From Planctomycetaceae bacterium (GTDB lineage Bacteria; Planctomycetota; Phycisphaerae; SM23-33), in assembly GCA_039680605.1 (NCBI GenBank), contig JBDKTA010000059.1:1-61997 (forward strand): DNA of 61,997 nt. The letters run 5' to 3'. The notes under the pieces were generated by a model. That model did not search any database and was not told the origin of the DNA. It saw only the letters and a list, made by a program, of their open reading frames with translations. How positions within the stretch are numbered: position 1 is the stretch's first letter; every line of letters begins with the position of its first letter. Of the stretch, positions 2,974-60,031 are shown piece by piece. Both the position numbers and the translations under genes were made by a program.

Positions 2974-3068
2974 CGCAATAACGGAATGGCGGATGGACGG
3001 GTGGTAGATGAATGGATGTTTGGTTGGATGGACGAATGGCACCCCTTGAGATACCTGAGGAAAAGGCT

Positions 3069-5570
3069 ATGTCAGACAAGAAACGCATCGTGATCGTCGG
3101 CGGCGTGGCGGGCGGGGCCTCGGCGGCCGCCCGGGCCAGAAGGCTCAGCGAAGACGCCGAAATCATCCTCATCGAGCGCGGGCAGTACGTGTCCTTCGCC
3201 AATTGCGGGTTGCCGTACTATCTCGGCGGGCGCATCGCCGACCGCTCGCGGTTGCTGGTGGCCACGGCCGCGGGGCTGCGGAAACGATTCCGCATCGACG
3301 TGCGGACGCAGACGGAAGTGCTGCGCATCGACCGCCCGGGCAAGAAGGTCGCCGTGCGGACGCCCGAGGGCGCCGAACAAGTCATCGAGTACGACGCGCT
3401 GGTGCTCTCGCCGGGCGCCGCCCCCGTGCGCCCGCCCGTGCCGGGTTTCGACCACCCGCGCGTCTTCACGCTGCGAAACATGGCCGACATCGACTGCATC
3501 AAGGAATACGTCGACACCCACAAGCCGCGCAAGGCCGCCGTCATCGGAGCTGGATACATCGGCCTGGAGATGACCGAAGCCTTCCGCGAGTTGAAGGTCG
3601 ACGTGGTGCTGGTGGAATTGATGGACCAGGTCTTCGGCCCTATCGACCCGGAGATGGCGGCGCCGCTGGCCGAGCATATCGCCTCGCACGGCGTGGACCT
3701 GCGCCTGGGCACCAGCGTTCAGCGCGTCGATGACGACGCGGGCAAACCGGTCCTGGCCCTGTCGACGGGGGAGAAGACCCCGGTCGACCTGGCGATCCTG
3801 GCCATCGGCGTGCGCCCCGAAACGACGCTGGCCGTCCAGGCCGGGCTCAAGATCGGGCCCACCGGCGGGATCGCCGTCGACGAGCACATGCGCACCAGCG
3901 ACGCCGACATCTACGCCGTCGGCGACGTCGTCGAAGTGACGCACCTGGTCGGAGGCGGCGCGGCGCTGATCCCGCTGGCCGGTCCGGCCAACCGCCAGGG
4001 ACGCATCGCCGCCGACAACATCTTCGGCCGCGACAGCCGATACCGCAAAACCCAGGGCACCAGCATCTGCAAAGTGTTCGACCTGGCCGTGGGCATGACG
4101 GGCCTGAGCGAGAAGGCCCTCAAAAAGGCCGCTACGCCCTATGAAAAAGTCTACGTGCACCCGTCGTCGCACGCGGGCTACTATCCCGGCGCGCACACGC
4201 TGTCGCTCAAGCTGCTGTTCGACCCGGCCGACGGGCGGATCCTCGGCGCCCAGGCGGTCGGGGCCGCCGGCGTCGATAAGCGCATCGACGTGCTGGCCAC
4301 GGCGCTGCGGGCGGGGATGACGGTGTTCGACCTGCAGGACCTCGAACTGTGTTACGCCCCGCCGTTCGGCTCGGCCAAGGACCCGGTCAACTACGCGGGG
4401 TTTGTCGCGGCCAACGCCCTCAAGGGCGACGTGGCGCTGTGCCACTACGCTGACGTGGCGGCTCCGCGCGGCGATCAGATGCTTTTGGACGTGCGCACGC
4501 CGGAGGAGGTTCGCGGCGGCACCATCGCGGCGGCGGCGAACATCCCGCTGGACGATCTGCGCGAGCGGCTGAGCGAACTGCCTCGCGACAAGGAAATCCT
4601 GGCCTTCTGCAAGGTTGGCCTGCGCGGCTACCTCGCCTGCCGCATCCTCAAACAGCACGGCTTCGCCTGCCGAAACCTCAGCGGCGGGTACACGACGTAC
4701 AAGGCCTTCACCCGCGCCCTGGCGCACGATGACGTCGCGCCCGAGCGAACGAGCGCCAGCGATACCGGCGCCGAACCAAGCGGTGGCACAGCCTTTCCAG
4801 GCTGTGACACAGGCTCGAAAGCCTGTGCCACCCAGGCCGCCAATGTCGTCAAAACCATCGACGCCTGCGGTCTGCAGTGCCCCGGACCGATCATGAGGCT
4901 GCGCACGGCCGTCGACGAGCTGTCGGAAGGCCAGTCCGTCAGCATCCGCGCCAGCGACACGGCCTTTGCCGGCGACGTGCCCGCCTGGTGCGCCAGCACG
5001 GGCAACCGCCTGGTGTCCCTGGTGCGCGACACCGGCTATGTCGTCGCGACGGTGGAGAAGCGCCTGGCGGCGCAGCCGGCGCCGTCGGCAGGGGGCTGCG
5101 GCAAAGGCAAGACGATCGTCGTTTTCAGCGACGACTTCGACAAGGCCATCGCCGCGTTCATCATCGCCAACGGCGCCGCTTCGATGGGCAGCGACGTGAC
5201 GATGTTCTTCACGTTCTGGGGCCTCAACGTGCTTCGCAGGGACGGCGCCGTCAAAGTCCGCAAGACGCTCGTCGAGCGGATGTTCGGGTGGATGATGCCC
5301 CGCGGGGCCGGCAAGCTCAAGCTCTCGAAGATGCACATGGCCGGCATGGGCAAGGCCATGATCGCCGGCATCATGAAGAAGAAGAACGTACTGTCGCTGC
5401 CGGAGTTGATCGCCGCCGCCCGGGCTGCGGGGGTCAAGATGGTCGCCTGCACGATGTCGATGGACCTGATGGGCATCAAGCAGGAAGAGCTGATCGACGG
5501 CGTCGCGGCCGGCGGCGTGGCGATGTATCTCCAGACGGCAGAGCAGGGCGGGGTGAATCTGTTTATTTGA
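3069..5570 (+). CDS. CoA-disulfide reductase / rhodanese / TusA / DsrE-like fusion protein
   Basis: The protein has 833 residues and four domains. Residues 1-450 are a pyridine nucleotide-disulfide oxidoreductase: FAD motif IVGGVAGGASAAARARR, redox motif FANCGLPYYLGG with Cys46, and NAD motif VIGAGYIGLEM. This is the CoA-disulfide/persulfide reductase type. Residues 465-560 are a rhodanese with Cys514 (AFCKVGLRG). Residues 592-665 are TusA/SirA with C-G-L-Q-C-P-x-P (Cys600, Cys604). Residues 678-833 are DsrE/DsrF-like. The start is ATG 3069 with GAGGAAAAGG upstream. The enzyme should reduce or relay sulfane sulfur in the cytoplasm. It follows the ArsR-type gene. The linker at residues 575-588 is encoded by a palindromic repeat (4792-4832). 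Confidence 0.92.
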   Translation: MSDKKRIVIVGGVAGGASAAARARRLSEDAEIILIERGQYVSFANCGLPYYLGGRIADRSRLLVATAAGLRKRFRIDVRTQTEVLRIDRPGKKVAVRTPEGAEQVIEYDALVLSPGAAPVRPPVPGFDHPRVFTLRNMADIDCIKEYVDTHKPRKAAVIGAGYIGLEMTEAFRELKVDVVLVELMDQVFGPIDPEMAAPLAEHIASHGVDLRLGTSVQRVDDDAGKPVLALSTGEKTPVDLAILAIGVRPETTLAVQAGLKIGPTGGIAVDEHMRTSDADIYAVGDVVEVTHLVGGGAALIPLAGPANRQGRIAADNIFGRDSRYRKTQGTSICKVFDLAVGMTGLSEKALKKAATPYEKVYVHPSSHAGYYPGAHTLSLKLLFDPADGRILGAQAVGAAGVDKRIDVLATALRAGMTVFDLQDLELCYAPPFGSAKDPVNYAGFVAANALKGDVALCHYADVAAPRGDQMLLDVRTPEEVRGGTIAAAANIPLDDLRERLSELPRDKEILAFCKVGLRGYLACRILKQHGFACRNLSGGYTTYKAFTRALAHDDVAPERTSASDTGAEPSGGTAFPGCDTGSKACATQAANVVKTIDACGLQCPGPIMRLRTAVDELSEGQSVSIRASDTAFAGDVPAWCASTGNRLVSLVRDTGYVVATVEKRLAAQPAPSAGGCGKGKTIVVFSDDFDKAIAAFIIANGAASMGSDVTMFFTFWGLNVLRRDGAVKVRKTLVERMFGWMMPRGAGKLKLSKMHMAGMGKAMIAGIMKKKNVLSLPELIAAARAAGVKMVACTMSMDLMGIKQEELIDGVAAGGVAMYLQTAEQGGVNLFI
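4792..4832. repeat. Family N palindrome inserted in frame inside the sulfur fusion gene
   Basis: The ends GGTGGCACAG (4792-4801) and CTGTGCCACC (4823-4832) are a perfect ten-base inverted repeat. Inside are AGCCTTTCCAGGCT and AGGCTCGAAAGCCT. A related intergenic copy (CACAGGCTTTTGAGCCTGTG) is at 36215-36234. The insert encodes about 14 residues (GGTAFPGCDTGSKACAT) in the linker between the rhodanese and TusA domains and keeps the frame open. Confidence 0.8.
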
Positions 5571-6286: not shown

Positions 6287-6313
6287 GTTAGCGGCGGGGC
6301 TTGCCCCGCGCGT
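6287..6313. repeat. Family B hairpin, single copy
   Basis: GTTAGCGG followed by the hairpin GCGGGGC-TT-GCCCCGC. It is a half-element compared with the two-hairpin forms at 41503 and 48056. It lies between the DUF2231 gene and the exporter operon. Confidence 0.8.
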
Positions 6314-6380
6314 TCAGGTCTGCGCCGATCACCCGTACGGCGCCTTCAGGCGGATGATTCTCTCCGGCGGCTGCAGTGCG

Positions 6381-36184: not shown

Positions 36185-36214
36185 TTCGGAAAGCTCCTAA
36201 TGATAAGTTCGTGG

Positions 36215-36234
36215 CACAGGCTTTTGAGCCTGTG
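36215..36234. repeat. Family N palindrome, intergenic copy
   Basis: CACAGGCTTTTGAGCCTGTG, preceded by GTGG. It is the same kind of palindrome that sits in frame inside the sulfur fusion gene at 4792-4832. Confidence 0.7.
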
Positions 36235-36310: not shown

Positions 36311-36502
36311 AAAAAAGGGGAGGAAAACCGACGACGAGGACGAGGACGACGACGAGGACGATAGAAGCGTCCCGCCCCGATGTTGCGGCGGAGCTTGCTC
36401 CGCGCGTTTGGGCATCGGGGAAACAACCGCGCGGAGCAAGCTCCGCCGCTAACATCGAAGTGGGACGCTTCTATCGTGCTCGTCGTCGGTTTCTTCTTTT
36501 CC
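36311..36502. repeat. Family C composite palindrome, copy 2
   Basis: The arms are AAAACCGACGACGAGGACGA and following triplets up to AGAAGCGTCCC (36324-36373), paired with GGGACGCTTCTATCGTGCTC and CGTCGTCGGTTT (36461-36493). Inside is a complete family B element (36379-36457) with GCGGAGC-TT-GCTCCGC and GCGGAGC-AA-GCTCCGC hairpins. It takes up most of the 332-base gap between GH29 paralogue 2 and gpsA; I see no gene here. Confidence 0.88.
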
Positions 36503-59333: not shown

Positions 59334-60031
59334 GGAGGCCGCTTCAGCGGCCTTGGTCCCGCCGAAGGCGGGGTTAGCCCCGGCCTTCAGGCCGGGGTGG
59401 AGGATCACGGACGTTCTCCCTTTCTTCTTGTATTTGAGCCCGCTTCAGCGGGCCTGTTTCTGGGGTGCATGTATGTCAACGCGAGCTTATAGCGAAATCA
59501 ACTTCCACGTCACGTGGCACGTCAAGGATGATGAGCCGATTCTGTGTGACGAGGTCGAGGCACAACTGCAGCGGTTTCTCCAGACCAAGGCCGCGGCGAC
59601 GTCGAAGATCTACTTTCACGTTGTCGGAGGAACCGATACTCACGTGCATATTGTCTTTTCCCAGGAGCCCGACCTCCTGACCAGCACGTTTATCGGCGAA
59701 TTGAAAGGCGCCTCGGCGCACTTCATCAATCACCAGATCCTCAACCGCAAGGCCCTGGAGTGGCAAAGCGGATATGGCATCGTTTGCTTCGGCAGCAGCC
59801 ACCTTCCGTGGGTGGCGGATTATGTGCGGAATCAGCGTCAGCGACATGCCAAGGGCGATATCCACGAGAGACTCGAGCGTACCGAGCCCGAAGAGCGGGA
59901 TAAGCCCGCTGAAGCGGGCTAAGAAAAGAAGAAAAAAAGAAGAGGGAGTCTGTGCGCCCTGGGACCCCGGCCTAAAAGGCCGGGGCTAACCCCGCCTTCG
60001 GCGGGATCAAGGCCGCTGAAGCGGCCTGCCG
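59334..60031 (+). mobile_element. RAYT-type element: transposase inside about 130-base inverted repeats
   Basis: The left block (59334-59465) holds hairpins GGCCGCTTCAGCGGCC, CCCGCCGAAGGCGGG, CCCCGGCCTTCAGGCCGGGG and, nearer the gene, GCCCGCTTCAGCGGGC preceded by TCTCCCTTTCTTCTTG. The right block (59901-60031) holds the same parts in reverse order and opposite strand, ending GGCCGCTGAAGCGGCC. The transposase gene lies between. This is the arrangement of REP-associated transposases (RAYTs), which sit among the palindromes they are thought to move. No target duplication is evident by eye. Confidence 0.8.
59473..59922 (+). CDS. REP-associated tyrosine transposase (IS200-like Y1)
   Basis: The 149-residue protein is a Y1 HUH transposase: YSEINFHVTWHVKDD at the start, the metal motif THVHIVF (His57, His59), and the catalytic tyrosine Tyr117 in VADYVRNQRQRHAKGD. 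This is the TnpA/RAYT family, which cuts single-stranded DNA at hairpins. Its last residues (DKPAEAG) and stop codon are encoded by the right-hand inverted repeat, so coding and recognition sequences overlap. It starts at ATG 59473 just after the left repeat, with no clear ribosome binding site except GGGGTG. Confidence 0.9.
   Translation: MSTRAYSEINFHVTWHVKDDEPILCDEVEAQLQRFLQTKAAATSKIYFHVVGGTDTHVHIVFSQEPDLLTSTFIGELKGASAHFINHQILNRKALEWQSGYGIVCFGSSHLPWVADYVRNQRQRHAKGDIHERLERTEPEERDKPAEAG

Follow-up and report, generated by a model that had tools for sequence, protein, structure and literature searches.

We found that a 51-bp palindrome inserted in frame in a gene encoding a multidomain sulfur protein belongs to a dispersed family of paired REP sequences (REPINs). 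The insert is very probably a RAYT-type REPIN that landed in a linker of the protein and is read as a passenger peptide. The host gene, in the window (the whole analysed stretch of 61,997 nucleotides), corresponds to an 852-aa ORF at 3012-5570 with a likely start at 3069, and its frame is uninterrupted through the insert (Table 1). Pfam domains were found in the order Pyr_redox_2, Pyr_redox_dim, Rhodanese (residues 487-565), TusA (614-683) and DrsE_2 (700-851), so that the rhodanese and TusA domains flank codons 591-607, as the initial annotation of this DNA had proposed. That annotation placed a palindrome with perfect ten-base ends at 4792-4832. The ends are indeed perfectly complementary (GGTGGCACAG at 4782-4791 and CTGTGCCACC at 4823-4832), but the start had been set about ten bases too far to the right and the left arm omitted. 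Codon 591 begins at base 4782, and 4782-4832 is thus exactly 17 codons rather than the estimated 14 or so residues; the two cysteines ascribed to the added peptide are present. One strand of the insert folds into a pair of 8-bp hairpins held by a closing stem, and the other strand into a single long hairpin (z = -5.0 and -5.5 for the two strands; 0 of 200 shuffles folded equally well).

Table 1 Coordinates of the insert, its host gene and a related repeat in the window.
Feature	Position	Strand	Remarks
Host gene, FAD/NAD disulphide reductase - rhodanese - insert - TusA - DsrE_2 fusion	3069..5570	+	maximal ORF from 3012
Whole in-frame insert GGTGGCACAGCCTTTCCAGGCTGTGACACAGGCTCGAAAGCCTGTGCCACC, 51 bp = codons 591-607, peptide GGTAFPGCDTGSKACAT	4782..4832	+	10-bp perfect ends
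REP-B unit, GTGG-tagged hairpin GTGGCACAGCCTTTCCAGGCTGTG	4783..4806	+	
REP-A unit, inverted, CACAGGCTCGAAAGCCTGTGCCAC on +	4808..4831	-	preceded by 1-base spacer at 4807
Single intergenic REP-A copy GTGGCACAGGCTTTTGAGCCTGTG	36211..36234	+	same family as insert

We counted 90 occurrences of the 12-base half-site AGCCTGTGCCAC in the genome that contains the window and 2 of its reversed control; for the partner half-site AGGCTGTGCCAC the counts were 83 and 3. The palindrome is therefore not a chance structure. The assembly, a draft and apparently a MAG, comprises 5,230,656 bases in 72 contigs. In approximately 530 kb fetched around the half-sites, we counted at least 82 distinct paired elements and 28 perfect unpaired half-sites. 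The unit consists of REP-A GTGGCACAGGCTTTCCAGCCTGTG, a spacer and an inverted REP-B, with the GTGG tags facing outward; the REP hairpin is GTGG followed by CACAGGCT-TTCC-AGCCTGTG. Among the 82 paired copies the arms are near-constant, A is nearly always paired with B, and the spacer varies: it is a single nucleotide in the window copy, and elsewhere commonly 3-5 nt and sometimes tens. The family is a REPIN, a heterodimer of A and B REPs: it has short hairpins with a 5' GT[AG]G tetranucleotide, dispersed copies, and inverted dimers with short spacers. The related intergenic copy that had been cited at 36215 as a sign of dispersal was confirmed, as a single REP and not a dimer. A second type of palindromic repeat (GCGGCGGAGCTTGCTCCGCGCG and GCGGCGGGGCTTGCCCCGCGCG) was observed in the window at ~6290-6320 and ~36380-36460, once as an inverted pair, and is adjoined by a run of GACGAGGACGACGACGAGGAC at ~36335-36362.

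We compared the sulfur protein with nine full or near-full orthologues (53-66% identity). The initial annotation had suggested such a comparison for the presence or absence of the insert, and held that the same linker peptide encoded by non-palindromic DNA would speak against it. Neither the peptide nor the half-sites nor the palindrome was found in any of the nine. Together with the dispersed copies, this absence supports the earlier view that a dispersed, mostly intergenic repeat became coding in a tolerant linker. The distance from a conserved DTG motif to the start of TusA is roughly 21-26 residues in the orthologues and 32 in the window protein, a net gain of about 6-11 residues that supports an apparent insertion. 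The orthologue linkers differ among themselves in sequence and length, so a clean addition of 17 residues is not proven at this site; the linker of the nearest orthologue (66% identical) is unalignable, and there was no exact empty site among the orthologues compared.

The protein handles persulfides, and both neighbours of the insert are sulfur-carrying domains. It might therefore be thought that the two insert cysteines were recruited for persulfide transfer among rhodanese, TusA and DsrE and that the repeat is kept by selection. However, both cysteines are encoded by conserved REP bases, and the same frame recurs in unrelated proteins: the cysteine-bearing peptide in NuoN (SGTAFPGCDHATGWKACAT) and a glycosyltransferase, and GTGFPAC in a GH95 protein and a radical SAM protein. 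Persulfide chemistry is thus not indicated for these cysteines, and with the insert missing from every orthologue we regard a recruited function as very unlikely.

To call copies inside genes, we used a codon model trained by EM on the fetched sequences with a random-position control; this replaced a 5-mer coding model on 150-bp flanks, which was too weak for calling genes. Of the 82 paired elements, 18 (22%) were found in one open frame with a coding signal on both sides, compared with 58% of random positions, a depletion of genic REPINs (binomial p about 2e-11) that makes the family mainly extragenic, like other REPs. The window copy is nevertheless no lone oddity, and many of the in-frame copies are located inside catalytic domains, not linkers. 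Homology in Pfam and the PDB placed them in histidinol dehydrogenase (HisD), NadA, NuoN, a UvrD-type helicase-nuclease, a radical SAM protein, two zinc dehydrogenases, GH95, GH38 and a glycosyltransferase, among others. Several of these inserts lie within a domain. When compared with homologues of known structure for HisD, NadA, NuoN and sorbitol dehydrogenase, the insert showed up as extra sequence. In a ceramidase-like gene (C33:117950-118368), two in-frame copies were observed, of which one is a single REP (CSDTGWKACATGF) and the other a full REPIN (GGTAFPGCEGPQAGKPVP). The in-frame peptides read VAQ(A/P)FQ(P/A)V... in 11 copies and (G/S)GT(G/A)FP(A/G)C... in 7, while the third frame (WHRLSSL) was not used. 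This use of two of the three frames could mean either that the peptide is under selection or that the element prefers certain targets. Element lengths in these copies were 0, 1 and 2 modulo 3 in 8, 9 and 1 cases, respectively.

Many of the remaining copies directly follow stop codons: among 34 copies scored near the 3' ends of genes, 26 start in the interval that runs from 1 bp ahead of the stop codon's end to 10 bp beyond it. Enterobacterial REPs with roles as mRNA stabilisers, terminators or gyrase sites also sit just 3' of stop codons. This position, and the strong fold of the window insert on both strands, could point to a DNA or RNA signal of that kind which came to lie in an ORF by chance, the structure being selected and the effect on the protein incidental. 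The window copy, however, is mid-gene and in frame, and every copy of the family has the hairpin, hence the structure needs no local selection. We consider such a signal unlikely.

RAYT (TnpA_REP) proteins are Y1/HUH enzymes that cut single-stranded REP DNA with the GT[AG]G tag as a guide, and in one studied system a change from GTAG to GTGG shifted cleavage to CC (PMC8266576). In the window's genome we found 15 Y1_Tnp matches, several with distinct flanking REP families of their own, and no RAYT in this assembly was flanked within 1.5 kb by the exact REP of the window insert. Elsewhere, a RAYT gene in a Syntrophales MAG (L197) is bracketed on both sides by the identical REP-A, and a RAYT in a relative (G024) is bracketed by GTGGCACAGGCTTTCAGCCTGTGG, whose loop is one base shorter than that of the window REP. 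With an enzyme beside the identical REP in another genome but none beside the exact REP here, mobilisation of the insert by a RAYT is inferred for this genome; the neutrality and translation of the insert are likewise inferred. A stand-alone RAYT is also present in the window (59378-59985; Y1_Tnp at 59488-59835, +), between repeats of a REP family of its own (CCCCGGCCTTCAGGCCGGGG / CCCCGGCCTAAAAGGCCGGGG); because this family is not that of the insert, the gene was set aside as a candidate mobiliser. At least four more RAYTs (L031, L032, L040 and L041) each have a different flanking REP family (CCCAGGGC..GCCCTGGG, CCGGGGGC..GCCCCCGG, GTGGCATGGGCG.. and CACGCACAGC..). Several REP-RAYT systems thus coexist in the genome.

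Small, non-coding, dispersed elements with inverted repeats could also be classical MITEs, inserted by a DDE transposase with duplication of the target site. Direct repeats of 1-9 bp flanking the elements, however, were not above shuffles except in a single 4-bp case, and sister genomes as well as the Syntrophales locus tie this type of REP to a Y1/HUH RAYT. A DDE origin is accordingly highly improbable. The flanking bases were enriched (G in 46 of 82 elements, C in 55 of 82). The A/B pattern was found in 7 of 397 genomes of the class, four of which hold 155, 68, 43 and 31 copies, and the exact REP-A was found also in Deltaproteobacteria, Acidobacteria and Planctomycetota MAGs, a patchy distribution such as would be seen for a transferred mobile element.

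We therefore favour a RAYT-type REPIN as the source of the insert. Being non-autonomous, it was most likely carried by the REP transposase in the form of single-stranded DNA and would have landed in the rhodanese-TusA linker of the sulfur fusion. Landings that break genes would be purged, and most remaining copies lie between genes. The REP-A and REP-B units are without stops in all six frames, so a landing in frame at a tolerant place would survive and be translated as a passenger peptide.

A search with the Syntrophales RAYT brought up relatives of it that are lodged in long ORFs. One such frame, of 545 aa around C4:18884-19903 (about 18.9-20.5 kb of contig C4), belongs to the window's own genome and holds, in order, the N-terminal half of EtfB, in-frame REPs of the GTGGCATGGGCG type, the RAYT, inverted REPs and the C-terminal half of EtfB. 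The sole other EtfB-like match in this genome is distant (43% over 74 aa). A related RAYT was present in 100 of 397 genomes of the class; among the 132 matches listed, 76 were in open frames of at least 700 aa and 31 in frames of less than 350 aa. Elsewhere in the phylum, the RAYT matches sampled were mostly in short frames, and embedded RAYTs appear to be commonest in the window's class. In addition to the EtfB case, 60 embedded-RAYT places were fetched from relatives. In ValS, the RAYT was located at the CP1 boundary in 17 places, ahead of the SRQLWWGHRIP motif in 6 and C-terminally in 1. LeuS accounted for 8 places, IleS for 6, a DinG-like helicase for 5 or 6, DNA methylase or restriction-modification genes for 14, and other hosts for fewer. 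The embedded RAYTs are complete ORFs bordered by in-frame REPs of the GTGG type.

For the 15 embedded cases analysed with Pfam, an origin as long frames that arose by chance in GC-rich DNA was rejected, because host domains were detected in all of them and flanked the RAYT segment on either side in 11; that matches outside the class are mostly in short frames also counts against such an origin. In ValS, the distance from DDEVEH to ATTRPE is 37-42 residues without the insert and 263-360 with it, and the host is intact on both sides. This comparison provides a clean empty site, and a chance ORF was rejected on that ground for ValS. Assembly error is unlikely, since some embedded cases come from single-contig genomes (G263 and G070). 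The RAYT-bearing ValS was the only ValS among the matches listed for three genomes (G007, G228 and G303). In the aligned RAYTs, HxH was found in 62 of 62 and a tyrosine at the catalytic position in 61 of 62, and the N and P of the NP motif in 95% and 90%. Host-site labels were clustered on the RAYT tree (17 changes, compared with 39.8 when shuffled and a least possible 11), which would fit long residence at a site with repeated moves between hosts. We suggest, tentatively and with slightly less than even confidence, that GTGG-tagged REP/RAYT systems form an in-frame, gene-invading class. In such a class the whole REP-transposase-REP unit, as well as the 50-bp REPINs, would sit in frame in essential enzymes such as ValS, LeuS, IleS and EtfB, translated as an inserted domain and long-lived, intein-like in that it could not be deleted without losing the host gene, and would still be active and seed REPINs.

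Rickettsia palindromic elements (RPE) are also palindromic repeats found in frame in functional proteins, but the tag of RPE-4 and RPE-6 is CGTC whereas that of the window family is GTGG, and the family does not count as an RPE. Inteins and IStrons resemble the embedded units as mobile elements inside host genes that do not destroy them. They leave by protein or RNA splicing, whereas in the embedded REP/RAYT units, known here from sequence, the frame is simply open. The REPINs of Bertels and Rainey are reportedly essentially extragenic, in contrast to the coding fraction in this genome. They describe a like unit, two inverted REPs with a short spacer that disperse together and are tied to RAYTs (Bertels and Rainey 2011, PMC3116915). 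In-frame REP dimers that encode 20-30 residues, presumed to be tolerated in loops or linkers, have been described, many of the intragenic REPs being in repair genes and some in tRNA synthetases (Di Nocera 2013, PMC3733652). In that study, Opitutus terrae has the highest number of intragenic GTAG copies, and GTGG replaces GTAG in most of its GTAG-20 elements. These GTAG/CGTC-tagged REPs are like the present ones as in-frame dimers and differ in REP sequence and host phylum, and the sections consulted do not report a transposase gene that lies in frame within a host gene. By their motifs, HUH and YxxxNP, the embedded RAYTs may be likened to TnpA_REP subclass 2.7, which has [ND]HVH, YI[LR][NQ]NP, long GT[AG]G-tagged REPs and long variable N-termini; subclass 2.4 has in-frame REPs within its own tnpA gene, and the text of that survey makes no mention of nesting within host ORFs, whether of aminoacyl-tRNA synthetases or of other proteins (PMC6006769).

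The window copy is a further in-frame REP, an event of a type already known in other bacteria. The new part is the family-level finding of transposases nested in frame in host genes; searches of the open-access literature turned up no account of an entire RAYT gene nested in frame within a tRNA synthetase gene or another essential gene. The GTAG tag gives a TAG stop in one frame and GTGG gives none, which suggests a possible reason for the occurrence of GTGG-tagged REPs in genes. If transposases do routinely reside in frame in a cell's only ValS or LeuS, this would be a residence strategy beyond intergenic hiding, addiction and self-splicing. Embedded RAYTs would then account for odd large insertions in planctomycete housekeeping enzymes, and would offer a natural test of how the editing domain of aminoacyl-tRNA synthetases tolerates a foreign protein.
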